Shown piece by piece: positions 23,782 to 63,935 of a stretch of DNA of 64,000 nucleotides. The notes under the pieces were generated by a model. The model searched no databases and was not told the origin of the DNA. It saw only the letters and a list, made by a program, of their open reading frames with translations. Origin of the DNA: Heterotrichella gracilis (lineage: Eukaryota; Sar; Xanthophyceae; Tribonematales; Xanthonemataceae); contig JAULBX010023741.1 of NCBI GenBank assembly GCA_032358255.1, forward strand, positions 1 to 64,000. Direction: 5' to 3'. Positions within the stretch are counted from its first letter, which is position 1. Every line of letters begins with the position of its first letter. Made by a program: the position numbers and the translations under genes.

Positions 23782-25117
23782 TCAATGCCTGGCCTGCTGC
23801 ATCCCCAGTTCAATCTCGTCTGCGATCTGCTTTGCTGATGGGCGCATCTTAGGATCTTCGTTGATGCAGCGATTGTAGAGGTCCACAAACCACTGGGGGC
23901 GCTCCGCGGGCACCCTGCACACAAGTACATATTATCTTGGACAAGCAAAAGTTCTTCACAAAAAGTAATGCAAACGTACATGCAAATTATGTAGGTTGGG
24001 GCGATTTCTCAGAAATTATTGTCACAAAAAGGCTTCACCCTGATCATGCCGACCCAGCCAATGCAACAGAAAGCGACTGTTAGCGACCCTTACCTAAATA
24101 GCTCAACCTTCAATCATGTGCCCAGATATTAACACTTACATTATTTCCCTGCGATTATAGCGACTCGGCATCTTCCCCACAGCGATCTCCCACAGCACCA
24201 CCCCGTAGCTGTAGATATCAGCCTTCTCGTTGACTTTGGTCATCGGAGCGTTGCTAAGCACTGCGTTAAAGAGCTCAGGCGCAGCCCACGCAAAGGTGCC
24301 AGCAGCGCCCTCCAAATAAATGTATGACTGGTCCTGCACGCGCGCGATGCCGACGTCCGCGATCTTGGCTGTGACGGTCAAGCCGCCCGTCAGGAGCACG
24401 TTGTGGCTCTTGAGGTCGAGATGTATGATGTTGTGGGAGTGCAGGTAGTGAAGACCGCGGGCAATGTGCAACGCAACGGAGAGGCCACTGCGGGCATAAA
24501 AGGGGGGGTGTTAGGTGGGCGCTTGCTGCGCAGATTGCTGTGTGGACATGTGCAGCAAATGTCCAAAACATGGTCGGCTGTTGGTAATCGTTCTCATATA
24601 CCATATATACCATCTCGCACCCTTTCCATTTAATTGACTTCCATTACAGCGTGAAGCAGTTGACAGTAGTGTGACAAGATGCACAATGCCAGTAATGCCA
24701 CTGCGTGGGACAGATAAAAACTGAAAGGATTAATACGATACAAGATAGGAAGCACAGGAGTAGATTGCATGGGACTGTGTACCCTGTGTGGACATGGCTT
24801 TTTACAGCTTCATGTCCACTATACTGTGGGAGCCACGATTCGAGGGCTGCTGGCGCCCTATGCAATACTTACTGGTTGTCCCTGAAGTAAGGATTGGGCA
24901 GCGCATGGTGCAGGTCGCCCCCGGGCATGAATTCGGTGACCAGCATGGCGCCAAGATTCTCCTTCTGGCACACGCCCAGGAACAGCACAATGTTTGCGTC
25001 GCGGCAGCCCTTGAGTATCGCCATTTCGTCCAAGAACTTGGTGCGCTGCTTCTCGCTGTGATCTATAAGCACCTTGACTGCCACCTCTGTCACGCCCCCT
25101 TTCTTGGCCTTGTACAC
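23782..25117 (-). CDS. RLK1 exons 9-11: TKL kinase domain
   Basis: Exons are 25117-24873 (VYKAKKGGVTEVAVKVL with the ATP Lys; NIVLFLGVC; EFMPGGDL), 24487-24140 (HIARGLHYLHSH, HLDLKSHNVLL catalytic loop, KIADVGIARV, GTFAWAAPELF, DIYSYGVVLWEIAVG) and 23914-23782 (VPAERPQWFVDLYNRC, KMRPSAKQIADEIE, stop TGA). HRD is replaced by HLD (a non-RD kinase) and DFG by DVG, with the Asp kept in both. Exon lengths of 245, 348 and 133 bases are identical in RLK2 and RLK3. Confidence 0.92.
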
Positions 25118-28100
25118 CTGGAGGCAATAATGTCGATGATAAAGTATCGGGGGTAATTGTTAATTCATTCATGTTCGCATACGGTAATGTGTTTTCCCCT
25201 GACATGGCTTAGAGTATACTGGTGATAAAGATATGGATGATAGTAATAGAACTTTGTTTTTTATTTAAAGCCCTGATACTCCAAATTAAAATAACTTCCG
25301 CGCTCTAGCGGCTAGAACGGCACAGGATGGGAACGAGTACACCCGGCTGCAAACGCATGCTGAGCACCATTAATATGTGCAATAGGGGTGCGCACCTTGC
25401 CAAACCTTCCTCCTCCCAATTCCCAATATGAGCCGTCAGACTTGCGCTCAATTTCGATTTGGTCAGGGGGAATCATCCAGCCCAGGGAGAGAATGTCACG
25501 AAGGTGGATGGGGGTGGTGCTGCTGGTCGCAGGTGCATCACCAGTCGTCCGCCTGCTGCCCACACCAGCTGAGGCGATGGCGCTAGCCTGGGCACCGGCA
25601 GCGCGTCGGAACGGTTCGGAGGGCGGGGGCTGGCTAGCCGTGCTTGGTGTGTCCAACGTGCCGGCGCTAGGCAACCGCTCATCCTCAGCGGTGCTGTCCA
25701 CAACTACTGGGGGGAGGACGGTGGGGGAGCTGATGTGTGTTGTTGGTGACTCATGCACCTTGGTTGCCTGCCCGTTGCTCTCGCCGATTGCGGGGAATGC
25801 AGGGGCAAAGGTGGCCAGCTCGACTTGACGTAGCTGGGATGGGGTGGGCACCACCTCGCTACTCAGCCTGCGGGCACTGGGTGGTGGCTGGCTTGCATGT
25901 CCACCGGTACCGTCTACAATTATGTGAGGGAGGACGATGGCGGTGCCGCTGCCCAGCGCAGATTCTTTGGACGACTGCCCACTGCTCCCATTACGTGTGG
26001 AAATGCTGCCATGGCTAGCTGGGGTCATTGGGTTGACTTGAGTGGGGCTCATGTGGATGCCTACTACGCCAGTGGTGGAGGCATCACTAACTGTGGTAGC
26101 AGGATTGGAATCAGAAGGGCGGGGGTGGTTGCTCAATGTGCTGTCCCTGGGTGATCCTACATCAAGCAACGCTGGATCAGGCGTTGTTACGTTCCCACCG
26201 TTGGTTCCATTGGCAGCATGGGGGTGCTTCTCTAGCCCCTCTGCTGGCTTGTGCTTGCGTCGCTTGTGTCGCCGATAGCAGATGAACAGCGCGGCCGCAA
26301 GCAGTGCAGCAGCAATTACACTGCCGGTAATTATACCTGTGTGTGGGAAGGTGGCCATGTAATAACATCAACATTGTGAGCTCTGCATGGTTGATTGCAA
26401 AGGAACATGATGGATAGAAAATTGTACTCCTGCAATACTTCACTCCCTTGATTCCATAGTGTCCAGACACCAATATCATTCCAACTAAATAGCCCATAAT
26501 GACATGGCATACTTGGCGTAATCCAACAGCCACCATTGGATCCTTGCTTAAATTGTGATTTCAGCATACAAAACTGCAGTATGTTTTGAATGAAATGTAA
26601 CTTAGTGTCAGTGTCGCCAACGGTTGTGCCATGCGTGTTTATCGCAACTTCAGCGAGCATGATCACCAGTGCAAGGATAGAGTGGTATGAAATGCTCCCC
26701 TGGCCATAGCTACTTTGCGCTGGCTACCTGCCCTCTCACCTAAGATTGCACCCAATGAGCTGCCGCCGCCACCAGTGCTGGGGCTCTTGGCGGGGGGAGG
26801 AGGGGAAAATGGGGTCCCTGGTTGGCCATTGGGAGAACTGGAGGGCGAGGGTGGGCTGGTGGGTTGTGGCATCGGCCCAGGCACTGGTGTTGAGGGCCCA
26901 GGGGCAGGAGCTGGGACTTTGGGTGGAGGGGGGAGAGTGGGTGCTGGTCCTGTAGCAAGACAGAACGGGGGGTCTGTAAATGATGTTGTTGCTTGTATAA
27001 CCTAAAACGACAGTATAGAGGATAGCACGTGGCACCCATGGAGGAGCTGGACATCGAGGAAGTATTTGATGAAGCAATTGTTCATATACCAGAAATATCT
27101 TGCTACACACCGGCGTTCAAGCATGGTGCTGCTTGTCCAGAACGACTGAAAATACAAATAGGTGGACAAAATGTTTTGCCTGGGGCCAAAGAATAAACAA
27201 GGCTTTATAATTGTTCTATGCAATGGGGGGCAAACCATTATTGCCAGTTCAGTATGGTTTCAAGAAAAAAATGCACATGTATACGTATACATGGTGAAGA
27301 GTGAGGGAAAACTGCACAACATCGTTCTAAGGTAAATATGGTAGAATGAAATGATTTAGGATAGAGGCCCATGAGTTGGAGGTTGAATTGGGTACATGGC
27401 GGAGGCCAACAGCTCTGCTTCAAAATAGATGTTGCCAAATATCACTGCTGCATTGGACATTGGCACGTAGAATATAAGTTGCATTTCCATTTTGACTGTC
27501 CTCTTTCTGGAGCCACCAGAGAACAACATAAATATATTTAAAATACAAAGAAATATGTTAAATATTATCATTAGCAAAAGTGGAACCCTTTGGGCCTCAA
27601 TAGTTCATAGTTGTGCAGTGTGCATTTTGCAATAACACCTCCACCAGCCTAATTAGCCCAAATTGACTCCCTCATGACTGTCTCGAAATACCTGCACCTG
27701 GTATGTAACATACCTGGAACAAGGCTCAGAGATTAGAAAATATCACAGACAAAAACAATAAAAATAAACTTATGAAAGCAACAAAAAAAATATTGGAACA
27801 AAATCATAGAAACAGAAATAAAAGCTGTACATATTTTGTTACATAAGTTACGTTTCCAATGATTTATGCAGGAACAGGGTTGTAAATATCTAGAAGTTCA
27901 GCGAATACATTGATATTTTAGTCTTGTAAATCTTGTTAAGCTAGCCAAATGCATGTGCAGAGCTATTGAACTCTCAGACCCGTACCGCTGCAGATCACCG
28001 TCGGCAAGTTGGCCACCTGTGTCGGGGCCACGCCGCATGCACTGCCCACATAGTCGGCCAGCCAAAGCGCATCGTCCAGGTGCTCAGACCTGTACCAGGT

Positions 28101-31100
28101 GCACTGCGACCGGCTAGACAGGCCAAATTTTGGGACAGGCACCGTCATGGCGGTCCAAGTAATCTGGGTGCCATCACCGCAGGGGGTCCCTCCAAAGTAG
28201 ATGTAGCCATCCGAGCCTGTGCCTTGGCAGAGGGCTGGGTCTTGGGTGTTGCCTCGAACCCCAAAGTAGGTGAGGTTGGTAGCTGGCACGCAGTCTGCGA
28301 TAGTGGTTCCACGTCACAAGACAGTACATTGTACCCGCCTCTGGTTAAGGTGTAGAGTTGAAAGATTCTATTGGGTTTAGGTTTAATTGGGTTTAAGGGT
28401 CAACTCGTACACATTGCCGCTTGCGGGTGCAGGGTTGAAGTTTGGGGTAAAGCTTTTTTGGTCCAGCAACTCCACATTACCAAATATGTGCCATGGCATT
28501 ATCGTTGCTGCGTTCAAGTGGGCTCATTGCATTCCAAGTGGTTCATGTTCTGTGCATGTTCATATAGAGGTGTTTTTGTGCACACCTGGTGCTGTCAATG
28601 GGGGCTTTCTTGTTTGGAGTGTGTGTTCGCTCACCTTGTGGTGCCGATGGGGACTGGCCAAGAGGGGAAGGAGGCGGTGGTGGTGGCGGCATAGGAGGCG
28701 ATGATGATATAGATAGTACATAGACTGCAACGGGGACGGCATCAGGTTATCATAGAGGCAAGGCCTGCAAGCAAATATGTAAGGGTAACCAGTGTTGAAT
28801 ATATCCGGTTCAGTGCTTAGAGTTGAGGTACCCCGTTCAGTTTCATTGCTTAGTGTTGAGGCATGTCACCCTTGTCAAGTAAGGGAGTCGGAACAATTCA
28901 AACAAATCCCTTAACAGTACTTACTGGCAGAGGTTTGTAACCTAAAATTCCTGGTTTATGTATTACAATTGGGACTGGGAGTTGGTCCAAGGCTGGGAGG
29001 TGGTGTACTGAACGACCAGTGGCTTGGATCAAAGCCACAATTGCTGATTTCTCGAATTCAGAGTCAAGGGTTGAATTCCTGCTGTAGGTATCGGGTACCC
29101 AAATGACCGCAAATCTGGCTGCATTGGTTGGGATGCAAGCAGGAAATCTCACTAGGTACGCACTGGGACTGAGAGTTGGCTGGGGACTGGGAGATGGTGC
29201 GCTAGGTGAGCAATAGCTTGGACCGGTGCCACATTCACCCGCCTCGCTGCAGCACTGCCCCTCTGGGAGGACGTATGGCGAGCACTGTCCGCCCCTGACC
29301 TCCCCAAAGCCGCAATAGGGGTAGGGGGTGGTCTCGCAGGGGCCGCTCAGGCAGTCCTCTGCAATATGCGAGGTATTAATATATAACTACAGAGAAAGGA
29401 AACTACTTATTTACAATTACTTGATTGCTTGATCTCATAATCACAAGATTATAAGATTATTTGACAGTCACTTCAAGATATAAAATTTATTTACACTACA
29501 GTCATGTGTAATAAATAATTTTCTATAACATACTAGTGATTTAGTTATATGTATGATTGTTTCCATGATTCCTGCCAAGGGTTGTAACACCGCCAGGCGC
29601 GTCGGGTAACAATGAAATGCTGGTAGGAAGGGGAGCAAGGAGAAAGGGTGGACAACAACGGGTGGGAAGTAGTCAGATCCCAGCCACTCCATCTCCTGGA
29701 CATATTTTTTATAATACATGTTCATATGCTATGCACAAGTATTGCCTGTTACTGGACAGCACTAGTGCACTAGTACATGTGTCCGCACGGGTCCACAAAA
29801 TTGCAGCCCAAAGTACTTTGTGTATCCACTCCACGGACCATAAAGGCTGCAGCACATGTGTACAGTATATCAGTACATTGCTGTTGCACCAAACCGGCTG
29901 CACGGCAACTGGTGCAACTTTTCAAAATATTACTGGCATTTCTATCAGCAATGCTGGCATATTTTCATATGCGGTATTACAGAAATTTACAGGTATTAGA
30001 GAAGCACTTGCCAGAAATTCCTACAGAATAATTACAGAATAAATAATTAAGTAAACATGTGAATACATAATTACCTATTGTTTACTAATCATAAGAAATG
30101 ATATCTAAATGGAAAACATATGCATAAATATGTATGTAAAAATAGATCTTGCATGCACTTGCCAATATACTACATACATTTATATTTAAACCTTTGTACA
30201 AAATTTGTGTGGAAGTGGATGCTTGCACTGGTTGTGATGCTTGTGTGTTTTCTAAAACACTTCATTTTTTTCGATGTTTCTTGCAGATAAAAAACTGCTC
30301 ACCTTTCTTGCAGTGGTCCACGTCTTTGAAGCACCACCCGTAGCTGCTGCAGCACTGCTCGGCGTCTGAGCACAGACCAGAGTTTGTATTGCCATGCCCG
30401 CACCATCCTGCAGCACACAGTGTCGACTCCTGTTACTGGGAATAATTGACGTCTCTGAGTACCTTGAAAGGTTTTGGTACACCAATAAATGGAAATCACT
30501 GCCATAATTATATATGCCAGTTGTAGGGTCAAAATAAAAAACAGTTTGTGCATCAAGTGTGTCAAGTGCACATGCCCCCTCAGAACTTCCATGGTGCGAT
30601 ACGATAGATATGCTCACACTTTGCTAGCCATCACCTGCCGCACTAGAGCAAAGGGCTGTGCCTGCCTACATATGACTGTTGCTTAGGTTTTAGGATACAA
30701 TTTTTAGGGCTTTACACGGTCACCCACCCACCTGCTCCAAGAAAGAGGGGGTGCATCGAATGCACGTGACCGCTTCCTTGGGTTTAGGACTTCCGGTTTG
30801 CAGTGGTTCTAAAATCTTTTGCTGTTACATATTACTTATTGGGGTTTGACCATTTATCATTATTCGTCATTTTAGGGTTTTTCGGGCTGTTATTATTATT
30901 TATGCAGTCGTATAGATTTGGTCAACACATTTATTGTTTTGATGAATTGTGTTATGGCAAGCCACCCACCTGCCGCGCTAGTGCAAGGAGTGCACCGTCC
31001 GCATGTGACTGCACACCACCCGTACTTCTGCACGCTGGGGTTGGCGTTTGTAGGATCCTCCCACCAACCTCGATCGTCGCACCTTCCATTAGTGGTTTTC

Positions 31101-31682
31101 TGCAACACGAACACATTGCAAAGTTCTGATTACATAAATGGGAAGACTTTGTTTTGCACCGCCCCGCCCATCTTGAGGTCAATGCTTCAAGCCCCAAGTG
31201 GGTCTGTTCTGCAATCTCTGCAAACACTTTCCCCGCAGCCATTCACCTGCTTGTCTAGGATGAATGCCCATGGTCCCTCACAGTGGTACATGTATAGTAC
31301 ATATATACATCTATATATGTATAAAGAGCCTCCCTGGGGTCTAAGTTTTTTGGTGGATGCATACCAAATGCTTCAAAGCAAGAAATTCACCCCACTTCAA
31401 GAAATAGCTGGTGCCTCAGTTTTCAAAGCCACAACTGGGCGATGAAGGATTGCGGTCTGCGGTGGAACAACCTGTATAACATACAAATCACCAACACCAG
31501 GTCTCTGTATCTTCGTCGTACCCATACCCTTCAACACCCTTTGGCCCTACCTCCGATTCGCAGCTCCAATCACTCCAGGGCTGCAAGTCTTTGCATAGTG
31601 GGTCGCATGTGAGGCACCATCCGCCACCCACACACGCCAGTGCCACCACCAGCACCAGGGACAGGTTTGTAAGAAGGTCCAT
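23782..31682 (-). CDS. RLK1: receptor-like TKL kinase with two hevein (chitin-binding type 1) modules
   Basis: The proposed exons, 5' to 3' on the minus strand, are 31682-31551, 31099-30970, 30407-30303, 29358-29164, 28724-28635, 28294-27986, 26949-26740, 26336-25396, 25117-24873, 24487-24140 and 23914-23782. They give 945 residues with every junction GT-AG and in phase. The order is signal peptide (1-23), short Cys segment, ShK-like module (45-88), hevein 1 (88-122), hevein 2 (123-187), Pro-rich linker, six-Cys module (218-320), second Pro-rich linker (321-390), one TM helix (about 391-411), a basic YRRHKRR stop-transfer sequence, a juxtamembrane segment of ~270 residues and the kinase (about 690-935). 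Ligand: chitin or GlcNAc-type glycans is inferred from hevein. The kinase is cytoplasmic and keeps the Lys, catalytic Asp, DVG Asp and APE, so it is probably active. The model rests on splice phase and on RLK2/RLK3; transcripts would settle it. Confidence 0.75.
25396..26336 (-). CDS. RLK1 exon 8: transmembrane helix, juxtamembrane segment and start of kinase
   Basis: A 941-base exon, phase 1 in and phase 0 out. The helix is IITGSVIAAALLAAALFICY, followed by RRHKRRKHK (stop-transfer). About 270 Ser/Thr/Pro-rich residues follow, likely disordered and phosphorylatable. The exon ends with the kinase start LGWMIPPDQIEIERKSDGSY and the Gly-rich loop LGGGRFGK. The donor is GGCAAG|GTGCGC. The segment before the kinase varies freely between paralogues, unlike the kinase core. 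Confidence 0.85.
26740..26949 (-). CDS. RLK1 exon 7: Pro-rich linker P2
   Basis: A 210-base phase 1-1 exon with acceptor CTTGCTACAG and donor ATCTTAG|GTGAGA. It encodes PMPQPTSPPSPSSSPNGQPG, then TPFSPPPPAKSPS and a SSLGAIL end. RLK2 has two copies of this exon (48902-49078, 42367-42573) and RLK3 has two (61089-61169 short, 58953-59168). It is probably an extended, glycosylated stalk next to the membrane. Confidence 0.8.
   Translation of the reverse strand, partial: DQHPLSPLHPKSQLLPLGPQHQCLGRCHNPPAHPRPPVLPMANQGPHFPLLPPPRAPALVAAAAHWVQS
27350..27695 (+). mobile_element. LINE family A 3'-end fragment in an RLK1 intron
   Basis: TTTAGGATAGAGGCCCATGAGTTGGAGGTTGAA...GCTGCATTGGACA matches the reverse complement of 6.69-6.81 kb. 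The end AACACCTCCACCAGCCTAATTAGCC...GACTCCCTCATGACTGTCTC matches the LINE-A 3' UTR. It is antisense to RLK1 and 5'-truncated. Confidence 0.8.
27986..28294 (-). CDS. RLK1 exon 6: unrecognised six-Cys module
   Basis: A 309-base phase 1-1 exon. It starts DCVPATNLTYFGVRGN and contains DPALCQGTGSDGYIYFGG, PCGDGTQI, QCTWYRSEHLDD, YVGSACGVAPTQV and LPTVICSG. Six Cys and many aromatic residues are conserved in all three genes (about 70% identical by eye). I cannot place it in a known family. Confidence 0.8.
28635..28724 (-). CDS. RLK1 exon 5: Pro-rich linker P1
   Basis: A 90-base phase 1-1 exon (acceptor CCCGTTGCAG, donor CACAAG|GTGAGC) encoding SPPMPPPPPPPSPLGQSP. It is the short counterpart of the RLK2 exon at 50343-50462 and the RLK3 exon at 62407-62592. 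Confidence 0.7.
28880..29080 (-). pseudogene. Decayed copy of the hevein tail in the RLK1 intron
   Basis: The minus strand around 28970-29040 repeats the CCAAGC...GTACACCACCTCCCAGCC-TTGGACCAACTCCCAGTCCC pattern of the exon-4 Pro-rich tail, but the conserved Cys part is lost and the frame does not continue. A parallel decayed half-module lies at 62.80-62.91 kb in RLK3. Confidence 0.5.
29164..29358 (-). CDS. RLK1 exon 4: hevein-type chitin-binding module 2 plus Pro-rich tail
   Basis: A 195-base exon, phase 1-1 (donor CCCA|GTGCGT). It encodes YCGFGEVRGGQCSPY, GQCCSEAGECGTGPSYCSP and then a SAPSPSPQPTLSPS tail. The hevein Cys order C-x(n)-C-x(n)-CC-x5-C-x6-C is kept. It is a divergent second copy, less aromatic at the sugar site than exon 3. 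Confidence 0.8.
30303..30407 (-). CDS. RLK1 exon 3: hevein-type chitin-binding module 1
   Basis: A 105-base exon, phase 1 on both sides (acceptor GTGCTGCAG|GATGG, donor AAGAAAG|GTGAGC). It encodes GWCGHGNTNSGLCSD, then EQCCSSYGWC, then a DHC end. The pattern C-G-x(n)-C-x(n)-CCS-x2-GWC-x(n)-C is the ChtBD1/hevein signature, with the aromatic and Ser residues that line the GlcNAc site (S-x-Y-G-W) present. Confidence 0.85.
30970..31099 (-). CDS. RLK1 exon 2: ShK-like Cys module
   Basis: A 130-base exon, phase 0 in and phase 1 out. It encodes GRCDDRGWWEDPTNANPSVQ and then YGWCAVTCGRCTPC. The C-x3-C-x2-C end resembles the ShKT fold (usual ending C-x-x-TCG-x-C), although the full six-Cys spacing is not met. 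It is nearly identical in RLK2 and RLK3. Confidence 0.75.
31551..31682 (-). CDS. RLK1 exon 1: signal peptide
   Basis: Starts MDLLTNLSLVLVVALACVGG and is followed by WCLTCDPLCKDLQP. The donor is TCGGAG|GTAGGG in phase 0. The same exon opens RLK2 and RLK3. An in-frame Met five codons upstream (MPRC) is possible, but RLK2 lacks it, so I chose the shared one. Confidence 0.75.
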
Positions 31683-31689
31683 GCACCTT

Positions 31690-33200
31690 GGCATGTGCCG
31701 AATGTGGCTTCCCCAAACTCTTGCAAGACCTGCAGGGCGTGAACCTGTTGCTTCCAAAAGTAGCACCACAGCGCTGGTCTGAAACTTCAGACGAGAAAGA
31801 TATGTGTTATAGTGCAATGTCACCTATTTTCTATCATGCCCTTCCGGGCAAAAATGGCCCTTTTTACCTGGGAATTGACATTTTGTCAAAAAGCTTCCTT
31901 TCAGTTGTAATAAAAATGTGATAGCACCCAATGTTTTATTACGAAATTGCCGAGTGGCAACCTAGCGCCGCTACTAGCCGCAGGACCACCAGGGTTTGGA
32001 CAACTTAGCGACGGGCAACGTTGTCAGCTAAGCGTTGTAGGTGCCGAAGAGCAATCAACCTCGTTTACTCAAGCACTCCCTACAAAGTACGTCCTGCAAT
32101 ATACCTAGCAAAGCCGTGCGTCTTACAGGCTCATGTGAAGCTTGACCCACAGCTTGAAGTGGTGGAAAAACACCATTGGGAGGGCACCTTGTGTAGCAGC
32201 CCTGTCCAAATGCCTTGCAACAAATCCCTTGTACACAAGACTTTCACAGACGCTTTTACAGCCGGACAACCTAACTCATCTCCATTCTAAGACCATCACT
32301 TTACAATGGAGCATGTGGATATGCATGCACTGTCATGCATGTCATGAGCATGATGTCTGTGCTGACGCACCCTGGCCACACGTACGGGTGCGCGCTTGTG
32401 GTTCCCACCGGACACTCCAGAACTCTTAAAAGTCGGCGACGTAGCTGCTTGAAAGCGGAGTGCCCTAGATCACGGCCACTCGTGCTGCCGTGCCTTGCTG
32501 CACAAGATCAGGCATCCGGGGAAGAATACATCAAGACCAAGCACTTGGCATTTTTGCTGCAACTGAGACTCTTGTACTTCTCCGTTGGATTTCCTGCCTT
32601 GCCCATGTGAAGCTAGGCGCCTGGTGGGGAATGACTGGAAGTGGCTTACCTCACCAGTTGAGGCTGTTGCTAACCCCACTGCTTCCACAGTGGACCGCAG
32701 TTATGCCTGATTTTTCCTTTCCACTTTTGACAAACTGCTGTTAGTTCCTTTTCCCTGGCGGGGTGCGGCGCCCCTGGTGCCCTTTGTTCGTGCCCCCAGC
32801 CATGTTCCGCTCTGCCCTTTTTTGCCCAAAGGTTTCCGCTCTGCCTGTTATTTTGCCCAATATAACTCTCTTGGTTTACAACGAATTTGCTTCTAACCTT
32901 TGTCTGCAATTGAAGTTTCGTTTGATCTTTGTCATCAACCCTCACAAAGCCGTGTACCAGCATGTTGCCACCTGGGGTGCAGAGCTTACATTTGTGCATG
33001 CATTTACGGTTACGCATGCATTTGCGCGTCTATGCTTGCACGTGCACCCAGCCTGGAGTAGTGTGCTTGGAAGGTACCTGGGTGTAGGTGGTGGGAAGGA
33101 AGGGCGAGTAAATTGGGTGAACATCGCTGAGCACATCTATGTCTTTACTATCTTTACCCACAATTAAGTTACAGATATTGTTTGCTTGCCCACACTCTTA
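31690..33200. promoter_or_regulatory. RLK1 5' flank, homologous to the RLK2 5' flank
   Basis: Blocks within 31.7-33.2 kb match 52.1-53.7 kb in the same order: TGCCCTTCCGGGCAAAAATGGCC / TGCCCTTCCGTGCAGAAAGTGGCC; GTGGCAACCTAGCG...GGTGCC; GCGCTTGTGGTTCCCACCGG; GGAGTGCCCTA; and CATGTTCCGCTCTGCCCTTTTTTGCC. The promoter was thus duplicated with the gene. No core promoter element can be fixed from sequence alone. Confidence 0.5.
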
Positions 33201-54389: not shown

Positions 54390-55347
54390 ATAAAAGAAAT
54401 TACGCTCTGTAGTATCCCGTGCTATTTTGCAAGGGAGGTTTAATTGAAGGTTATCCTTCTGAATTACTGAATTCTTATCATTTGAATCGACAGAATACCA
54501 ACAAGGTCTTTAAGATAATATTCTTTTATTGTGAAATCATGCAGTTCGAGCTGCTCACAATGTATTTATATCAATGTGTTTATATTCCTCGTGTGCATGC
54601 AGTCATCTTTACCACTTCACTATATATATCACGATCAGGTTCAGCCTCCCCCCCGGTGGGCCTAGCTTCGCCCTCACTGCATGAATCATTCACTCCGTCA
54701 TGCATGTTGCCTATGGCTGATGTTTTTTCTCAGTAGGGAATCGATTGTTTAAATTCCATCATTAAATGCAATTATAACCATTAAGTACAAATACAAAAAC
54801 ATAATGACAATTTCCAGGCTTGAAAAACAGGCAATATCTTGATCCCATTTGTAACATGGGCCATAACGCCTCTATAGCCGTGTACAGAGCCTCCTAAATA
54901 TCTGCAATGAAATGTAATCAGAGTGATTTAATTTACCCACAGAGAAAACTTGTTAAGGAAACTGACAACAATATGTAATTATAAATCTGCCATGCGAGGA
55001 CAAATGTGATAAAGGAATGAATGATAACCAATGCCAAAGAGGTGATATGGCATATTATGGCACACCAACCGTTGTGGGCATGGAAAGTCAGCTTGGCTGG
55101 GAAAATGTGATAAGTGGGACCAAACTCGTCCTGGTATGGAAAATGTTTTTAACATTATATGGCAGATCTTAATGGCCCAAACAAAATATATTCTCAATCC
55201 ATTTCAATTAAGCTTGAAAAACATTTCCCTAAGTCCGTCAACTTGTCCTGATAGCTGGTATAGCTGGCGATAGCCCAGCCACCTGACACGCTTTGTCCCG
55301 CCCAGCCCGCAAAACACACGCCACGCATATATGTGCCAGGCACATGC
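54390..55347. other. Spacer and RLK3 3' flank
   Basis: No gene is supported. From ~55080 (GGAAAGTCAGCTTGGCTGGGAAAA) it aligns with the 3' flanks of the other kinase genes. Confidence 0.4.
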
Positions 55348-56586
55348 TCACTCTCTGGCCTGTCGAAATTCTTGTTCAATCTCGTCTGCAATTTGCTTTG
55401 CTGATGGGCGCTGCTGAGGGTCATTGTCGATGCAGCGTTTGTACAGGTCAACAAACCACTTGGGGCGCTCCTCGGGCACCCTGCACATAAACAATACACA
55501 TTTTTGTGATTACTCCATGACCCTACAATTTTCACCTACGCCCCTAAACCCCAACACCGTGCCCTGCAAACCAAAGGCCTTACCTGATGCCCCTGGTCTT
55601 CCCACGCACTGGCATTTCCCCCGTGGCAATCTCCCACATAACCACCCCGTAGCTGTAGATGTCAGCCTTCTCGTCATACTTTGTGCTTGGAGAAATGCCC
55701 AATAATTCGTTGAAGAGCTCAGGCGCGGCCCACGCAAAGGTGCCAGCAGCGCCCTCCAAATAGATGTATGTGTGGTCCTTCACGCGCGCAATGCCAACGT
55801 CTGCGATCTTGGCCGTGACGGATAAGCCACCCGTAAGGAGCACATTGTGGCTCTTGAGGTCGAGGTGCACAATGTCGTGGCTGTGCAGGTAGTGCAGGCC
55901 GCGAGCAATGTGCAGCGCAACGGAGAGGCCACTGCAGGCATCAAATGGGTGGTGTTAGGTGGGCAATTGCACGGTGCAAAGTGCTATGGGCATGTGAAGC
56001 AAATTAGTGACGTGCAACTCACAATCAATCGAGTTTCATGTACCTCCCTTGCACATTTTTCATTTCATAAGCTTTCATTGCAGCTGTAACAAACTTCGCT
56101 AGCGTGGCAAAATGCACAATGCCTTATCGTGGCCCCTGGTCAGGTAGAACCCAGAGGAGAGGACATAGGAATCACGGGAGAGGATTGCATAGGACTGTGA
56201 ACTCTGTGTATTTCACAGGTAATCATTGCAACTTCACGCCCACTAAATTGGGGGGATGTTGATCGAGGGTTAGCTAGTGCCAGGGTTGTTAGTATGTATA
56301 TTTATAAACACTCTCCCGCTAGCGGCCAACGCCGCACTTACTGCTTGTGCCTGAAGTCAGGATTGGGCAACGCATGGAATAGATCGCCCCCCGCCATGTA
56401 TTCGGTGACCAACATGACGCCGAGATCATCCTTCGAACACACACCCAGGAACAATACAATGTTTGGGTCGCGGCAGCCCTTGAGTATCGCGACCTCTTTC
56501 AAAAACTTGGCGCACTGCTTCTCACTCTGGTCTATAAGCACCTTGACTGCGACCTCTGTCACGCCGCCTTTCTTTCCCTTGTAGAC
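55348..56586 (-). CDS. RLK3 exons 10-12: TKL kinase domain
   Basis: Exons are 56586-56342 (VAVKVL Lys, EYMAGGDLFHALPNP), 55931-55584 (HLDLKSHNVLL, KIADVGIARV, GTFAWAAPELF, EIATGEMPVRG) and 55480-55348 (VPEERPKWFVDLYKRC, stop TGA). Lengths of 245, 348 and 133 bases equal those of RLK1 and RLK2. The intron between the first two (56.0-56.3 kb) is highly similar to that of RLK2, showing that these two are the most recent pair in the kinase half. Confidence 0.92.
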
Positions 56587-59500
56587 CTGGAGGCAATGGC
56601 ATGATGATAAAGTATTGCGGGTAAACGTTTCATTGAATTGTATTAATTTAATTGCAAGGGTTAGTTAGTTAGTTAGTTAGTTACATGCATTCCAGCAATA
56701 CAGCCAGATCAGCAGTCGGTCTTGCACATGCGGCGCCACGCAGCTCTTTCCTGGCACTGTTTGAACCACTTATTGATCCCACGCGACTTGAGGTCCTGCT
56801 GGAGTAAGTCAGCCCACGTGGCCCTTGGCTTACCTACCCCCTTTGCCCCCTCTACCCTACCAAACACCATACATTTAGGAACCCTATCGTCTGATAAACG
56901 TCCTAATTGTCCCAACCAGCGTAGCCTAATGTCCCTGAGTTTGTCACTTATGCTTTGTTGCCCACACTTGCTAAATACAACGGAACTAGGGGTGTGCACC
57001 AACCTAGAAACCCCACACAGAGCCCTTAAACAACTATTTTGAATTACCTCTAATCTAGCAAGTTGTGGCTGCCTAATAATTGCAAGGGTTGGTGATGCAC
57101 TAATCAGCCTGCGCAAGCTGCTAGGGCGCTTGGCATTCAAACATGCATGTTTTCCTTTGTTTTATAGACTATGACTTGGTCGATGTATGTAGGAACCTTG
57201 CATGATAATATATGCTGCGGCGGGGGGCAGATGTCAAGTATGCCCTGGCCACAATATATCTATATATGTGCTGGCCACAATATATAGATATAATTATCTG
57301 CCATAAATCTAATTATGTGCCAAAAAGCTTGATCTAATTATCAAGCTTAGGTAAATTAGATCAAGCCATAGATTAAGCTTCATCTAATTTATTTAATATT
57401 TTATTATATTAACCTTCACAGACAGGTTACAAAATCTAATTTCTTTTTTGATATAAATAATATAAAAAATAAATTAGATTTATTTAATTTAAATGATCTA
57501 ACCATGCAGATATTTAGATATGGTGCGATATCTAAATAACGCAGGATTATAGATATATTGTGGCCAGGACATACTTGACATCTGCCCCCGCCGGCGCCGC
57601 AGCATTTATTATCATGCAAGGATTATAGATATATTGTGGTGAAGGTGCTGGCAATGGCCACTTAGGCCACTTGAGCTGGCGTCACAATGCATTATATTTT
57701 TTAGGTATCATACCTTAAAATACTATCAACTATGCAAAAAATAAGTGAATCACTTACGCAACGAGAAAGTAAAAATGTCTTGATAGCTGGTGCTTAATGC
57801 GTGGCGTGGCAATGCCTGCCAGAAATCAATTGTGATTTCTAGCGGCTACAAACTACTGCAACGGCATAAACGGCACATGTGTAGAGGATGGGAACGAACA
57901 CACCTACCCGCACCACATGGTGAGCACCACCGCATCATGATGCGCAAACAGGGATGCGTACCTTGCCAAAGTTTCCTCCTCCCAATTCAAAGTAAGAGCC
58001 GTCCGACTTGCGTACGATTTCGATGTGGTCTGCGGCAATCATCCAGTCCAGTGAGGATATTTTGGGGAGGTCGACGAGGTTGGTGCTGGACGTAGGTGCA
58101 TCTGTCGTCCGCCCGCTGCCCACGCCATTTGTGCGGACGGCGCTAGCATAGGCAACGGCGGCGCGTTGGAACAGTTCAGAGGGCAGGGGCTCGCTAGCAG
58201 TGCTCGGTGTGTACAACGTGCGACCACTTAGGGCATTGGAAGACTGCTCGTCCCCATTGGTACTGTCGACAGCTACAGGAGTGAGGACAATGGGGGAGCC
58301 GCTGCCAATGGCCGACAACACAGGGGAGGGGCTCCTGTGTATGCGTAGTACGCTACTAGTGGAAGTATCACTAGCTGGGGTAACAGGGTTGGAATTGGAG
58401 ATGGGGGGCTGGCTGCTCCATGAGTTGGCCCTGGCTGATTCCACATCAACAACATCGGCTTGCCTCTCTAGCCCCTTTGATGGGTTCTGTTCGCTGTTGC
58501 CTCGCTTGTGTCGTCGATAGCAGGAGAGCAGCACGGCCGCAAACACTGCAGCGCATACTCCGGCAATTACACCTGTGCGGTGGGAGGGTGGGATTGTAGA
58601 TTATGTATTATTGTGAATGCTGCATGGCCACATGGCAAAAGGAGTAAGCCGATGCCAAAATGTGTTTCTGCAATATTGTACTCTCTTGATCTTCCTGGAT
58701 CCGGAGATCAATATGCGCGAAGTGCAATGATGCCCTCTTCACTATCCCTAAACTAATAATTGTAGTTCCCCACATGCAAAATGCCCATGTGGTTTAAATG
58801 AAATGTAATTTGGAGGCAATGTCGCCAGCGTGACATGTATTTGATTGCAAGTATTGCAAGTTTGGAGCCAGCATGGTTATCAGTGCACATATGGAGTGAT
58901 ATACATTGCTGCCCTGGCTATAGCTACTTGCGTTGGCTACCTGCCCTCTCACCTAAGATTGCACCCATTGAGCTGCTAAAGCCGCCACCATTGCTGGGGC
59001 TTTTGGCGGGGGGAGAAGGGGGGAACGGGGTTCCTTGTTGGCCATTGAGAATGTCGGAGGGTGAGGGTGGGCTGGTGGGTTGTGGCATTGGCATTGCCGT
59101 AACTGCCGCCAATGGGTACAAGGGGCCAGGGTCAAGCGCTGGGGCTTTGAATGGAGGGGCGAGTGTGCCTGTAGTAAGGAAGGAAGGGTGGTACCGTGGA
59201 TGATGATGGTGGTATTTATTATGATAATGATAGTAACCAATAAAATAGTATTTCCAAATATTGTTTCATGAAACAATAATATGTGACACCAGTGGAGAAG
59301 CTTGATAGCCAAGGAACTACTTGATATAAGCAGTAAGTTTATGATATGCATTTCAATTTGACTGTCCGCTTCAATTGCACATCAGAGACCAACATCAGAA
59401 TAGGGTTATTGAATTACAAGGAAATATTTTAGTGTCATCAGTAGTAAACGAGGAGTTGGGTTGAGTTGAGTTCGTGTAGCCTAACTAATTCATAGTTGTT

Positions 59501-62500
59501 TAAGTAAGCGAGGAGCATCCTTGCAACATCACCTCCAACAGCCTAATGAGGGTTGGCTCCCTCGTGACTCCCTCAAAATTCTTGTAAATTTCTGTCATAA
59601 TTAAAAACAGGAAAATATAAATATTGCAACATGTATTATATTATGCCCTTATTCCTCGTGCGTGTGTACTTGTCTGTGTGTGAGCCGTACCTAATTTAAT
59701 ATACAGCCCGTCGCAACTTGATTCCGACCCTGATCGTGATCCCCATGCACTCTTGGGTCGGATTGTGTTCTTAAGGTATCCAATCGTGTTGAAACCTTTA
59801 CAGTATTCCGTGATGTTGCACGTGTCAGCAAAGATGGACAGGTGATCACTGATTGGAGTTCCTGGAGGTATGTCATACCCAAAACTGTCCTTGTTGAGGT
59901 TGAACTTGTACCCAGGGACTTCACAGCCTGCAACAAAGATCGCAATATTCCACGTCATCCTTAATGTGTATGTGGCATGTGCCTCTACAAGTACAAGTAG
60001 TGGCACAAAAGCATGCTGGGAGTGTGTACATATGAAGAATTTGGGGGAAAGGGGTTATGGCACCTCAAGAAAACATCGCCGTGATGCACTTGCATATGAT
60101 ATGCACATATTAATAACCGGCAAGAAGCACAACAATTACAACCAATAGAGGGCACTTACTGTTCTTCACGTACAATCCACTGCACTCAGATGTTGTGTTT
60201 GAAAACGGTATCGTAATGAAGTTGCTTTGTCCTGAAACTTTGTATTTCATAACCATATCACCATCCATTGAACTGAACCCTCTGCAGTCAAAAATTGAGG
60301 CACACGTGGACGCAATAGCAGCGATCCTGTCATTCTTGGCAATCGTTGTTTCCATGTCATACCCTACGCTGTTCTCGCCCTTGTGAAATTTGAAGCCATC
60401 AACATTGGGACAATCTGCCAGTGTCACAGACAAGGAGCTCAGAAGATCAAGTGCGATACAAGTTGTTTCAGATGATGGTGATTGCAGATAATGTGGGCAC
60501 ATGGGTAACCGACGGTTTGGGTTGTGATGCCGTTATGACTATACTTTTGCATAACTAAATCCAATCGGTGGGTCAAAGGGATCGGAGCATAACTAAATCC
60601 TCGAGACACATTGTAAGAGATTGCAAATGCTCGTGAGGTGAACCACCCAAACAAGACTATTTAGAACGTGTAGGTGTTAGCAAACAAAGCGACCACTTGG
60701 ACTGCAAAGGATTGTTGCTTTGCGTCGCTCATAGCAGCTTAGTGCTACACTAAGCGCATTAGCCTACGCACAAAAGAGGTACAAGGACAGAATGCATGCC
60801 ACGATGCTTGGCAAGGTTACCGTGCATGCAAGACCTGAGCAACACGAATGGATGATTGGACACCGCTGCAGCCGTGCTGTGAATGCCATCTCTGCGCAAG
60901 ATTACTTGTTATTGCACCTGTACTACCAGAAAAGGCATGGATGTATGTTATAATATCATTGATGTAGGGTATGTAGGGATGTGTGAGTGCGTGTATTGTC
61001 TTTGTAACTCCATGCCATTCATGCCAATTCCCCAGCCTCCCAAGCCCCCAACAAACGAGACAAACCCTTAACCCTCAGCAGAAATTACCTGGATCGGGCG
61101 AGGGTGGGCTGGTGGGTTGTGGCATTGGCAATGGGCCTATGGGTCGAGGGGCGAGCGCGGGTGTGGGTCCTGTAGCAAGGAAGGAGGGGAATATCGTGGA
61201 TGATGATGGTGGTTATTAATAAATGATGATGATGATAGCATCCAAACAGATGATAGTAAAAATATATGTGGCCTCCATGGGGGAGCTTGACAGCCAGGAA
61301 CCACTATATCAAGCAAATAATTTGTACCACAGGTCTTGTACTATGGGCGCAAGAAGAAAATTGCACACGTAAATTAGTGTACATGGTGCGAACCAGTGGC
61401 CCCCCGAATCCAGCCTAGTGCGTCCCCTTTCATTCTTTTACACATGGTGACAAGTGGGGTGATATTGTACAACATTTGACGTTTATTCTTTCCGAGGCAG
61501 ACAGGGTAGAAATCACTAGATTTAGGATAAGGTAGATAAGGGGCCTAAATAACCTGAGAATTGAATAGATGCCATAGACCAGGAGGACTTTAATATAATC
61601 ACTGATATATCAAAGTCCTCCTGCATAGACCAACACTATAATCTTATAAACCAGAAATGTAATTTGTATACCGTATATTTAATTACAACAGTTACGTTTC
61701 CAATGTTACAGGGTTATGGATGTCGAGAAGTCCTACCAATACGTTGATACTTACAGGTGCTACAACCATGGATGCTAGCAAAATGCATGTGCGGAACTCT
61801 TATACTCCATACCCTTACCACTGCAGACCACGGTTGGCAGGCTGGCCACCATTGTCGGAGCCACCCCGCATGCACTGCCCACGTAATCGGATAGCCACTG
61901 CGTATCGTTCAGGTGATTAGACCTGAACCAAGTGCACATGGGCCGGCAGAGTTTTGGAAGTGGCACCGTCATGGTATTCCAAAGGATCTGGGTGCCATCG
62001 CCGCAGGTGCTCCCTCCAAAGTAGATGTAGGTATCTGAGCCTAAACCCTTGCAGAGGGCACAGAGGGCTGGATCTCTGTTGCCTTGTACTCCGAAGTGGG
62101 TGAGGCTGGCAGCTGGCACGCAGCCTGCGAGACAGTGGTTCCATATCGCAAAACGGCACATCATACACGTCGCTGTTTGAGGTGTAGGGTTGGATTTAGG
62201 GTTCCAGTGGTTCCACATCACATGATAACGCAGTTTCGCTGCGCCCAAGTGGGCTCACTGAATACAAAGTTGTTCAAGTTCTATGAATCCTCAAGATGCA
62301 TACTGAGTGGTTCAGGTTTTGTGTATGCTCACGCAAAAGTGTTTTTGTGCGCACCTTGGCTGTCAATGGGGATTTCTGTGTTTGTGTGTGTGCTCACCTG
62401 GTGTACCTGATGCTCCCAATGAGGACTTGCCAAGAAGGGAAGGTGGCAGTGGTGTAGGTGGTGGTGACGATGGTAGTGGGGATGGTGGCTTTGGTGATTG

Positions 62501-63935
62501 TGGTGGGTTTGGTGGTGGTATAGGTGGTAGCGGCTTTGGTGACTTTGGTGACGGTGGTGATGATGGTATGGTTAGCATAGACCGGACGCTGACTGCAACG
62601 GGGAGGATGACAGGTAAATACTGGGGCATGCTGGACGCCTGCAGGCAACTTGGTGTAGATACCCTGTTAGGGCTGAAAATCCCCTGTCAAGGACCATACA
62701 AACACAATCCATGCAGAAGGCATATAAGGAAACAAGTTGGAAGCAAACACTTTTGCTTGTCAGGTGAGGAGATCGGAAAAGCACCCTTGAAGTTTGTATT
62801 GTAATTTGACTGGGAGTTGGTTCAGAGCTAGGAGGTGGTGCACTAGGTGAGCAACAGCTTGGACCCATTTCACAATTTCCTGCCTCCTCAAATTTAGGGT
62901 CTTGGGTCAAATACTTTAATCTCTCTGCTGTATGTGTGTAGGGTTAACTGCAAATTTGGCTGCATTGCTGGCATGCAAGTAGCTAACCTTTACTATTAGC
63001 TTTAAAAAGTAAGCACTGGGACTGTGAGGTGGCTGGCGACTGGGAGGTGGTGCGCCAGGTGAGCAATAGCTTGGGCCCGTGCCGCATTCACCCGCCTCGT
63101 TGAAGCACTGCCCCTGTGAGAGCAGGTGTGGCGAGCACTGGACGCTTCTGACCTCCCCACAGCCGCACCAGGGGTAGGAGATGGTCTTGCAGGAGATATT
63201 ACTATTACTTTAATAATTTATACCTACTGCACACCATGCTTTGATATATATAATTTATGTTGATGTTATATACTCACTGTATACTTTTATTTATTACTTT
63301 GATAAATTTATTTATTGCGAGCCACCCACCTGCCGCGCTAGTGCAAGGGGTGCACCGCCCGCACGTGACTGCGCACCACCCGTACTTCTTCACGCTGGGG
63401 TTGGCGTTTGCAGGATCCTCCCACCAACCTTGATCGTCGCACCTCCCACTAGTGGTTTTCTGCAACACATTGCAGAGTTTTATAAAGATTTCGGCCAAAT
63501 ATAAACTGAATGCCCATGGCCCCGCCACACATACAACATAAATATGGCAATATGTGACTGCACAGCTGTCTCAAAGTGGCCTCTAGTCCCAAAGAACCTC
63601 CCTAGGATTTCCACCCACGTGCATAGGTTTCCTTTGCCTTTGGGAGGAAGATACTTACCCATTAGATGCCAAACCGTAGGTAATGCGTCCATGGGCGCCT
63701 TGCCAACTGGATTATGGAGAATTACCCCGCAGGGCAGAACAAGTTGTATGCATGCCACCACCACTACCTCGGCATCATGCCATTAGTATTCCTTGGGCCC
63801 CACCTCTGTTTCGCAGCTCCGACAACTCCGGGGCTGAAAGTCTTTGCACGGCGGCTCGCATGTGAGGCACCATCCGCCAGCCACACATGCCAGTGCCACA
63901 ACCAGCGCCAGGGACAGGCTTGTATGATCGTTCAT
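55348..63935 (-). CDS. RLK3: receptor-like TKL kinase with two PAN/Apple-like modules
   Basis: The proposed exons on the minus strand are 63935-63804, 63459-63330, 62592-62407, 62124-61819, 61169-61089, 60414-60160, 59927-59691, 59168-58953, 58572-57962, 56586-56342, 55931-55584 and 55480-55348. They give 959 residues with all junctions GT-AG and in phase. The order is signal peptide, ShK-like module, long P1 linker, six-Cys module, short P2a, PAN 1 (about 279-363), PAN 2 (364-442), P2b, TM helix, juxtamembrane segment (shorter, ~180 residues) and kinase. A hevein-like exon at about 63020-63195 is decayed and left out because no in-phase acceptor is seen. PAN/Apple folds bind proteins or carbohydrates; the ligand here is unknown. 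A LINE-B fragment and a TIR MITE sit in the intron before the kinase core. Confidence 0.7.
56650..57150 (-). mobile_element. LINE family B 3'-end fragment with TTAG tail
   Basis: A minus-strand frame (57140-56709) of 143 residues is a LINE C-terminus: LARLEVIQNSCLRALCGV, RLRWLGQLGRLSDDRVPKCM, GKPRATWADLLQQDLKSRGI and ERAAWRRMC. The 3' tail is a (TTAG)n/(GTTA)n microsatellite at about 56660-56686. No RT core is present, so it is 5'-truncated. It lies in the RLK3 intron between the membrane exon and the first kinase exon. Confidence 0.85.
57196..57621. mobile_element. TIR MITE, ~426 bp
   Basis: Left end CCTTGCATGATAATATATGC and right end (reverse complement) CCTTGCATGATAATAAATGC. The arms match for ~70 bases through GGGGCAGATGTCAAGTATG and CCTGGCCACAATATATCTATA. 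The interior is very AT-rich with further palindromes (AAGCTTGATCTAATTATCAAGCTT). No frame is present. It is not related to the Harbinger-like MITE. The bases just outside the right end repeat ATTATAGATATATTGTGG from inside it. Confidence 0.9.
57962..58572 (-). CDS. RLK3 exon 9: transmembrane helix and juxtamembrane segment
   Basis: 611-base exon, phase 1 in and 0 out. The helix VIAGVCAAVFAAVLLSCY is followed by RRHKRGNSEQN. The kinase start is SLDWMIAADHIEIVRKSDGS with loop LGGGNFGK. It is about 110 residues shorter than in RLK1. Confidence 0.83.
58953..59168 (-). CDS. RLK3 exon 8: Pro-rich linker P2b
   Basis: 216-base phase 1-1 exon encoding MPMPQPTSPPSPSDILNGQQ, TPFPPSPPAKSPSNGGG, SSMGAIL. 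It is the closest relative of RLK1 P2. Confidence 0.78.
   Translation of the reverse strand, partial: AHSPLHSKPQRLTLAPCTHWRQLRQCQCHNPPAHPHPPTFSMANKEPRSPLLPPPKAPAMVAALAAQWVQS
59340..59585 (+). mobile_element. LINE family A 3'-end fragment in an RLK3 intron
   Basis: GCATTTCAATTTGACTGTCCGCTTC...AACATCACCTCCAACAGCCTAATGAGGGTTGGCTCCCTCGTGACTC corresponds to 27.48-27.69 kb and to the reverse complement of 6.45-6.68 kb. Confidence 0.75.
59691..59927 (-). CDS. RLK3 exon 7: PAN/Apple-like module 2
   Basis: 237-base phase 1-1 exon. It has GCEVPGYKFNLNKDSFGYDI, DTCNITEYCKGFNTIGYLKN and SSCDGLYIKL. All four Cys positions and the GY-K/F-F, GFNT and GLY motifs match module 1. Confidence 0.75.
   Translation of the reverse strand, partial: AVKSLGTSSTSTRTVLGMTYLQELQSVITCPSLLTRATSRNTVKVSTRLDTLRTQSDPRVHGDHDQGRNQVATGCILN
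60160..60414 (-). CDS. RLK3 exon 6: PAN/Apple-like module 1
   Basis: 255-base phase 1-1 exon (acceptor CACTGGCAG, donor AAGAACA|GTAAGT). It has DCPNVDGFKFHKGENSVGYD, STCASIFDCRGFSS, and TSECSGLYVKN at the end. The C-x2-x-GF/YKF start, DC-x-GF-x-S/T centre and C-x-GLYVK end are a PAN-like arrangement. Confidence 0.72.
61089..61169 (-). CDS. RLK3 exon 5: short Pro-rich linker P2a
   Basis: 81-base phase 1-1 exon (CTTGCTACAG ... GATCCAG|GTAATT) encoding PIGPLPMPQPTSPPSPDP. It is a truncated copy of P2 with a new donor inside the original exon. Confidence 0.65.
61430..61535 (+). mobile_element. LINE family A 3'-end fragment
   Basis: GACAAGTGGGGTGATATTGTACAACATTTGACG...GACAGGGTAGAAATCACTAGATTTAGGATA matches the reverse complement of 6.80-6.89 kb. 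It sits upstream of P2a at a position comparable to the LINE-A fragment upstream of RLK1 P2. Confidence 0.75.
61819..62124 (-). CDS. RLK3 exon 4: six-Cys module
   Basis: 306-base phase 1-1 exon with donor AGTG|GTAAGG. It has GCVPAASLTHFGVQGN, DPALCALCKGLGSDTYIYFG, CGDGTQILW, CTWFRSNHLND, YVGSACGVAPTMV and LPTVVCSG. It has one extra CALC pair and one extra Cys (LCRPMC) relative to RLK1 and RLK2. Confidence 0.8.
62407..62592 (-). CDS. RLK3 exon 3: Pro-rich linker P1, expanded
   Basis: 186-base phase 1-1 exon (CCCGTTGCAG ... GCATCAG|GTACAC) encoding repeats of SPKPL/SPKPPSPLP type and ending PSLLGKSSLGAS. It is twice the length of RLK1 P1, through SPKSPKP repeat growth. Confidence 0.7.
62800..62910 (-). 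pseudogene. Second, half-length decayed hevein copy in RLK3
   Basis: The frame FEEAGNCEMGPSCCSPSAPP aligns to the C-terminal half of the hevein exon (EAGECGTGPSYCSPSAPS). The N-terminal Cys half is missing. It parallels the decayed copy at 28.88-29.08 kb in RLK1. Confidence 0.6.
63015..63195 (-). pseudogene. Decayed hevein exon in RLK3
   Basis: Encodes YPWCGCGEVRSVQCSP and GQCFNEAGECGTGPSYCSPG, aligning to RLK1 exon 4. The CC pair has become CF, and the only upstream AG sites join in the wrong phase with the ShK exon. It is probably skipped in the transcript; RLK3 stays in frame without it because both neighbouring junctions are phase 1. Confidence 0.6.
63330..63459 (-). CDS. RLK3 exon 2: ShK-like Cys module
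   Basis: 130 bases, phase 0 to 1. GRCDDQGWWEDPANANPSVK, YGWCAVTCGRCTPC. Nearly identical to RLK1. Confidence 0.75.
63804..63935 (-). CDS. RLK3 exon 1: signal peptide
   Basis: Starts MNDHTSLSLALVVALACVAG and is followed by GWCLTCEPPCKDFQP. The donor is ACAGAG|GTGGGG in phase 0. An in-frame Met four codons upstream (MSRA) is possible. Confidence 0.72.

Follow-up and report, generated by a model that had tools for sequence, protein, structure and literature searches.

Three tandem candidate receptor kinases in a green alga, with ectodomains apparently built by exon shuffling

How does one kinase come to be joined to different extracellular modules in neighboring genes, and what might such genes sense? 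These questions are raised by a 64,000-nucleotide stretch of algal DNA (contig JAULBX010023741.1, positions 1 to 64,000; hereafter the window), which is contig C238 of the assembly as analyzed here (68.5 Mb, 903 contigs). Three genes in the window, RLK1, RLK2, and RLK3, share a kinase and carry hevein-like, LysM, and PAN-like exons, respectively. We read the locus as a tandem array of three predicted type-I membrane receptor kinases of a chlorophyte alga, the ectodomains of which would have been built by exon shuffling, and we give this reading a probability of roughly 0.6.

All-against-all comparison of the reading frames resolves RLK1–3 as three adjacent tandem units on the minus strand. Each can be modeled as a single spliced open reading frame: RLK1 at 31694-23782 (11 exons, 949 residues), RLK2 at 52118-38575 (12 exons, 952 residues), and RLK3 at 63947-55348 (12 exons, 966 residues). 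The coding sequences, of 2850-2901 bases, are free of stops and frameshifts in all three models, and four shared exons, of 130, 245, 348, and 133 bases, have identical lengths in the three genes; the first exon, the six-Cys exon, and the transmembrane (TM) exon differ in length. Common to all three are a signal-like peptide, a Cys-rich N-terminal module, proline-rich exons, a module with six cysteines (six-Cys module), a TM segment, and the kinase. The three spliced models, the four exons of equal length, and the shared minus strand bear out the original prediction, made from the letters of the window, of three neighboring genes with a common plan. Splice sites were picked by eye, so the GT-AG borders of all 32 introns are no independent test of this predicted splicing; yet the three genes are concordant in frame and phase. 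The signal peptide and TM calls come from hydropathy. In each protein the strongest hydrophobic peak precedes a basic stretch of the YRRHKR type, and the hydropathy of the TM stretch is 2.52 in RLK1, 2.58 (residue 456) in RLK2, and 2.76 in RLK3. The signal-like stretch of RLK2 reaches 1.88 at residue 3, and a stretch in its kinase core is as high as 1.89. The predicted exons are as follows.

31551..31694 (-): RLK1 exon 1, signal peptide and first half of ShK-like Cys module
30970..31099 (-): RLK1 exon 2, second half of ShK-like module (C..TCG.C ending); no ShK match in the whole protein
30303..30407 (-): RLK1 exon 3, hevein-like module 1, 1-1 exon; PF00187 24.0 bits, E 4.8e-5
29164..29358 (-): RLK1 exon 4, hevein-like module 2, 1-1 exon; PF00187 20.3 bits, E 6.7e-4
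28635..28724 (-): RLK1 proline-rich exon, from the gene model
27986..28294 (-): RLK1 six-Cys module exon
26740..26949 (-): RLK1 proline-rich linker exon, single copy
25396..26336 (-): RLK1 TM, juxtamembrane, and G-loop exon; hydropathy 2.52
24873..25117 (-): RLK1 kinase exon (N-lobe)
24140..24487 (-): RLK1 kinase exon (HLDLKSHN, ADVG, APE)
23782..23914 (-): RLK1 last kinase exon and stop
51996..52118 (-): RLK2 exon 1, signal peptide and first half of ShK-like module
51335..51464 (-): RLK2 exon 2, second half of ShK-like module; no Pfam match
50343..50462 (-): RLK2 proline-rich exon, from the gene model
49806..50111 (-): RLK2 six-Cys module exon
48902..49078 (-): RLK2 linker exon, upstream copy
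47869..48018 (-): RLK2 LysM 1, 1-1 exon; PF01476; PDB 4pxv, E 2e-12
44787..44936 (-): RLK2 LysM 2, 1-1 exon; PF01476
42367..42573 (-): RLK2 linker exon, downstream copy
41011..41780 (-): RLK2 TM, juxtamembrane, and G-loop exon; hydropathy 2.58
40022..40266 (-): RLK2 kinase exon (N-lobe)
39254..39601 (-): RLK2 kinase exon (catalytic loop)
38575..38707 (-): RLK2 last kinase exon and stop
63804..63947 (-): RLK3 exon 1, signal peptide and first half of ShK-like module; alternative start 63935
63330..63459 (-): RLK3 exon 2, second half of ShK-like module; no Pfam match
62398..62592 (-): RLK3 proline-rich exon, from the gene model
61819..62124 (-): RLK3 six-Cys module exon (8 Cys)
61089..61169 (-): RLK3 linker exon, upstream short copy
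60160..60414 (-): RLK3 PAN-like module 1, 1-1 exon; motif only, no Pfam PAN match
59691..59927 (-): RLK3 PAN-like module 2, 1-1 exon; 32% identity to module 1
58953..59168 (-): RLK3 linker exon, downstream copy
57962..58572 (-): RLK3 TM, juxtamembrane, and G-loop exon; hydropathy 2.76
56342..56586 (-): RLK3 kinase exon (N-lobe)
55584..55931 (-): RLK3 kinase exon (catalytic loop)
55348..55480 (-): RLK3 last kinase exon and stop

In these models all 20 introns between ectodomain modules are in phase 1. The remaining 12, which interrupt the ShK-like module and the kinase, are in phase 0 or 2 (0/12 in phase 1). As far as the predicted introns go, this pattern is the signature of exon shuffling: insertion, duplication, or loss of a module flanked by phase-1 introns leaves the frame intact. 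Exon-shuffled animal receptors have 1-1 phase ectodomain modules as well, with other modules, in another lineage, and on another kinase group. The same property lends something to the improbable alternative that the hevein, LysM, and PAN-like exons can be left out or form part of other transcripts, such that the receptors are alike or differ as splice variants. Skipping of a 1-1 exon leaves the frame unchanged, of the three introns that flank the LysM exons two are long, at 2.2 and 2.9 kb, and an unused hevein-like relic is kept in RLK3. The exons in question nevertheless keep an open frame between canonical sites, with phase-1 introns at either end, and by eye, with no gene finder, no start exon or TM segment of their own was noticed in the listed frames.

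Rates of substitution bear on whether the three genes are functional. For the three last kinase exons, NG86 counts give a ratio of nonsynonymous to synonymous change (dN/dS) of 0.13-0.27; the six-Cys module gives 0.35-0.58, exons 1 and 2 give 0.46-0.61, and the TM/juxtamembrane exon gives 0.71-0.88. Eight linker comparisons, of 26-66 codons each, span 0.19-1.28. LysM 1 compared with LysM 2 gives 0.57, and dS is saturated between the two PAN-like exons. These values would fit functional genes with a constrained kinase and offer no evidence of positive selection; the locus had been described earlier as diversifying, a description that is not sustained, as dN/dS exceeds 1 in only two of the eight linker comparisons, with a maximum of 1.28 over 58 codons. 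Chance is excluded for the genes as such by their exon-by-exon agreement together with the low ratios in the kinase. That one or more of the genes are decaying pseudogenes is very improbable for much the same reasons: relics do lie nearby, at 35004-35120 and 63018-63191, but the coding sequences are intact over their whole length and the kinase exons are constrained.

The two halves of RLK2 and RLK3 differ in history or rate, with 90% identity in the kinase exons and 63% in the six-Cys module; the six-Cys modules of both are 72-73% identical to that of RLK1. The intron between the first two kinase exons (39602-40021 in RLK2 and 55932-56341 in RLK3, minus strand) is 91% identical and has abrupt edges, and the other four RLK2-RLK3 introns compared are 44-77% identical, next to 49% for one shuffled control. 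We considered whether the kinase half was homogenized by gene conversion or the intron is constrained. The 91% identity and the abrupt edges favor conversion, whereas the synonymous sites of the kinase exons, with a dS of 0.40, are less alike than the intron. Rfam gave no family at gathering score anywhere in the window.

Where, then, do the modules change? The hevein-like exons of RLK1 are located between the ShK-like module and the proline-rich and six-Cys exons. A different slot holds the LysM pair in RLK2 and the PAN-like pair in RLK3; it is flanked by two copies of a linker exon that is present once in RLK1. A same-slot swap of all three modules was rejected, given the other position of the hevein-like exons and a hevein-like relic in RLK3. 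The original prediction had placed a different pair of modules in one common frame; the swap itself is real, but it involves two sites. Its claim that the modules are interchangeable gains support from the phase-1 exons and the duplicated linkers. Within RLK2, the linker exon and adjoining intron are duplicated around the LysM pair (49132-48710 versus 42627-42200, 68% over 459 columns), and the LysM exons are themselves duplicated with an intron (48554-47861 versus 45472-44779, 70% over 746 columns). Three further pieces are found in or near the genes.

63018..63191 (-): decayed hevein-like exon in an RLK3 intron, 69% over 58 residues to RLK1 exon 4, E 2e-27
62809..62886 (-): second hevein-like fragment in RLK3, 69% over 26 residues
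35004..35120 (-): isolated last kinase exon, located between RLK1 and RLK2, 86% over 37 residues

In the first of these, CC has changed to CF and the PF00187 score is 9.9 bits (E 1.1); a phase-1 acceptor was not found among the nearby AG sites checked by eye. The lone kinase exon suggests a lost fourth gene, of which 35004-35120 (minus strand) is a possible relic. An extra hevein-like fragment was also seen past hevein exon 4 of RLK1, at 28971-29051 (minus strand; 52% over 27 residues).

The kinase is the constant part of the array. PF07714 is matched in all three proteins (E 1.4e-46, 9.8e-50, and 3.6e-49), and the G-loop, VAVK, HLDLKSHN, ADVG, and AAPE motifs are all present, with the catalytic Lys, Asp, and Asp. 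Among the best 60 of 2643 PDB matches of the RLK2 kinase are entries named CTR1, RAF, B-raf, MLK, MLT, EGFR, and similar; EGFR and another tyrosine kinase are thus also in this set, and no name of a land-plant RLK/Pelle kinase occurs in it. By best match of the RLK2 kinase, the window kinase would be closest to TKL (CTR1/RAF/MLK) rather than to RLK/Pelle, and the earlier TKL assignment agrees with these matches for that kinase.

Related kinases also occur elsewhere in the genome. A query running from the G-loop to the first kinase exon gave at least 78 matches, the window exons included and with several possible from a single gene, and 50 of those listed begin at query residue 48-51, the first kinase intron site of the window genes. 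We scanned 25 stretches around related kinases, some of them overlapping and six without a G-loop exon by pattern, and read the sequence upstream of the kinases on contigs C90, C218, C508, and C255 along the contig, unspliced. A TM-like stretch in the G-loop reading frame is clear in one C508 gene (L012/L053) and in C90 (L037), was seen by eye in C255, and lies in a separate upstream frame in C218. Six C90 frames were scanned: LRR_1 reached 24.1 bits in one, above the cut-off, and 17.4 bits in another, below it, and LRRNT_2 fell below the cut-off in a third. At L062 4640-8677 (C90), a stretch of leucine-rich repeats (LRRs), a TM segment, and a TKL-type kinase related to that of the window follow one another on the same strand and in the same order, and this gene is likely an LRR receptor kinase on a TKL-type kinase. 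Three PAN_4 matches, two of them over the cut-off, lie upstream of the C218 kinase, and proline-rich, extensin-like stretches lie upstream of those of C508 and C255. No LysM, ShK-like, or six-Cys module was seen by eye in the related-kinase stretches, of which C508 and C218 were covered by peptide searches. The HLD that replaces the usual HRD also occurs in the C218 kinase and so is not special to this locus. In a kinase tree of 22 rows, the window trio forms one clade with support 1.00 and the LRR, PAN_4, and proline-rich receptors fall on other branches, with weak deep support. The tree left out L012 and L024 (the same genes as kept rows), L031 (another C508 gene), and, by a length limit, L014, L029, and L038; L030 and L032, both included, are overlapping loci of one gene.

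What the receptors might bind is best addressed in RLK2. LysM and hevein are families that bind polymers of N-acetylglucosamine (GlcNAc). Two LysM had been proposed in RLK2, and the PF01476 match is firm: 76.8 bits (E 1.2e-21) in a Pfam scan of the whole protein and 86 bits for the isolated pair. The closest PDB match of LysM 1 is the chitinase LysM 4pxv (E 2e-12), followed by further chitinase LysM in 5bum (E 1.8e-5) and 5k2l (E 1.7e-4). By analogy, polymers that contain GlcNAc, either chitin or peptidoglycan, are the most likely ligands of the RLK2 LysM pair. A genome search with PF01476 returned 13 LysM matches, 5 of them on the bacterial-looking contigs C331 and C151. On those contigs (L039, L040, and L041), with 34-39% GC, the LysM frames look by eye like bacterial wall enzymes.

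Several results weigh against the reading of the locus as three receptors with these modules. The splicing is our own prediction; the kinase class is drawn from the best matches of one kinase of the three; and the ligands of RLK1–3 are likewise predicted. Scanned alone, the two hevein-like exons of RLK1 score 24.0 bits (E 4.8e-5) and 20.3 bits (E 6.7e-4) against PF00187, under its curated cut-off of 27.8 bits, and the four matches of a genome search with this family all lie outside the window, such that the proposal of two hevein modules in RLK1 has sequence similarity in its favor and the cut-off and genome search against it. The sugar-binding residues of hevein are usually Ser, Trp, Trp, and Tyr. 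The corresponding positions hold Ser, Tyr, Trp, and His in module 1 and Ser, Ala, Glu, and Tyr in module 2; module 2 thus presumably lacks two of the three aromatic residues of the sugar site, and module 1 is the better candidate. RLK1 may bind GlcNAc polymers through module 1, by analogy with the family. Neither PAN-like exon of RLK3 gives a Pfam PAN match (E up to 10), and none of the 11 PAN_4 matches in the genome is inside the window. The two exons are 32% identical and have four Cys in common; they recover only themselves in a genome search (two matches), and a profile built from them found nothing convincing among the collected genomic loci (best E 0.37), the 11 loci that overlap the window being excluded. 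An AlphaFold model of the first, with a predicted local distance difference test score (pLDDT) of 42.5, is too poor to judge the fold. The PAN domains once proposed for RLK3 are therefore not confirmed, nor is the claim that all modules bind sugar, in view of the PAN result and of the aromatic residues that hevein module 2 seems to lack. ShK (PF01549) was matched in neither of two pieces, from RLK2 and RLK3 (E up to 10), and its four genome matches are all outside the window; the shared Cys-rich N-terminal module stands, and its ShK name goes without a Pfam match. We treat the PAN and ShK labels as provisional.

A final point on this side concerns the six-Cys module, which matches no Pfam family and for which a structure model (pLDDT 43.1) is too poor to use. 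Its five genome copies are the three in RLK1–3 and two on contig C170, in apparently secreted, proline-rich genes, one copy having an in-frame stop. The C170 genes have no kinase-exon match in the 20 kb read, and a cell-wall role would fit them too. The two were noted at L052 5266-6618 and at about 20.8-21.1 kb of C170, and they combine the six-Cys module with a proline-rich stretch and a GDPHF region. In one of them, two frames from the region with GDPHF had no Pfam match. These genes bear on a different account of function, in which RLK1–3 would sense self glycans of the alga's own wall or extracellular matrix (in wall integrity, mating, or development) and not microbes. We consider this account unlikely, although less so than the optional-exon alternative. 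It draws on the secreted six-Cys genes without a nearby kinase match, on the extensin-like stretches borne by the close kinase relatives on C508 and C255, and on the proline-rich exons of all three receptors, and it is countered by the GlcNAc-polymer binding known for the LysM and hevein families and by the difference in modules between paralogues, which fits changing ligands.

That the host is a green alga, as first proposed, is supported by its CP26 protein, which scores 273-312 bits against PDB 7pi0, 9is4, 6kac, and 8bd3 and 133-137 bits against 8c29, 5mdx, 9i4t, and 6yp7. We take the latter four to be land-plant CP26, the species behind the PDB entries being assumed, and the pattern of matches places it with the chlorophytes. 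Another light-harvesting protein is less clear and discriminates less.

How does RLK2 compare with known receptors? Like the LysM receptor kinases of land plants and charophytes (CERK1/LYK and NFP), it has a LysM ectodomain, here with two LysM, and a cytoplasmic kinase, and by hydropathy a signal peptide and a single TM segment. It differs from them in its kinase, which is TKL by best match and not RLK/Pelle, and RLK1–3 add ShK-like, six-Cys, and proline-rich parts. The two LysM lie in two exons, unlike the three LysM separated by CxC that we take to define LYK, and they fit the general PF01476; the plant-type families PF23577 (LysM_RLK, 17.3 bits) and PF23457 (LysM2_NFP, 18.9 bits) stay below the cut-off. 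The chitinase LysM matched in sequence (4pxv, 5bum, and 5k2l) belong to enzymes, not receptors. Within the same alga, the C90 LRR, C218 PAN_4, and C508/C255 proline-rich genes carry kinases akin to those of the window, in which the first kinase intron falls at the same site.

In a 2019 survey, the chlorophytes sampled yielded no lectin receptor-like kinases and the record of LysM receptor-like kinases (RLKs) starts with Chara (PMC6362431). The same source does give Chlorophyta architectures of hevein with kinase or glycosidase, the kinase being listed for more than two hevein domains, and in its section 12 no LysM/PAN swap at one locus is described (PMC6362431). RLK numbers of about one to four per chlorophyte that has any, with 9 of 18 studied having them, are given in a review (PMC10868138). 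For Trebouxia, families named CERK1, LRR-RLK, and CRK41 are listed (PMC11523091), and a chitinase with LysM is mentioned (PMC12712428). No description of a chlorophyte LysM-TKL receptor was noticed among the papers listed by searches of mainly open-access literature.

The rest of the window is less informative. Ten frames of the left flank (1-22 kb) had no Pfam match over the cut-off. Two blocks 21 kb apart, 304-663 and 21508-21867, have frames 71-100% identical over 25-120 residues, the longer of which match no Pfam family. A dispersed repeat occurs three times, at 12428-12576, 47175-47634, and 53929-54390. The identity between two of the copies is 82.5% over 469 columns, and a frame taken from one copy was without a Pfam match. 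In an RLK3 intron, a frame at 56712-57161 (minus strand) resembles by eye the end of a reverse transcriptase of a long interspersed nuclear element, with a related piece at 19410-19544, and neither has a Pfam match.

Overall, we propose that the array arose through tandem duplication, with exon shuffling changing the ectodomains at one site upstream of the six-Cys module (hevein-like) and at a second between the duplicated linker exons (LysM pair or PAN-like pair), and with the kinase kept under purifying selection during these changes. The variable modules would bind ligands at the cell wall, and the TKL kinase would relay the signal inside. The three genes are real and well formed and the two-site swap is real, and there is a fair chance that they form a convergent glycan-receptor family. 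Somewhat short of an even chance, and so tentative, is the broader idea that chlorophytes evolved a large TKL-based receptor-kinase superfamily in parallel to the land-plant RLK/Pelle kinases, in which a slot for phase-1 cassettes gave rise to a convergent receptor for chitin or peptidoglycan. If RLK2 does act at the cell surface as a LysM receptor with a TKL kinase, receptor kinases that sense glycans would have arisen at least twice in green plants, and the detection of fungi or bacteria by an alga would become directly testable with a defined receptor and ligand class, the RLK1–3 paralogues serving as natural domain-swap controls.

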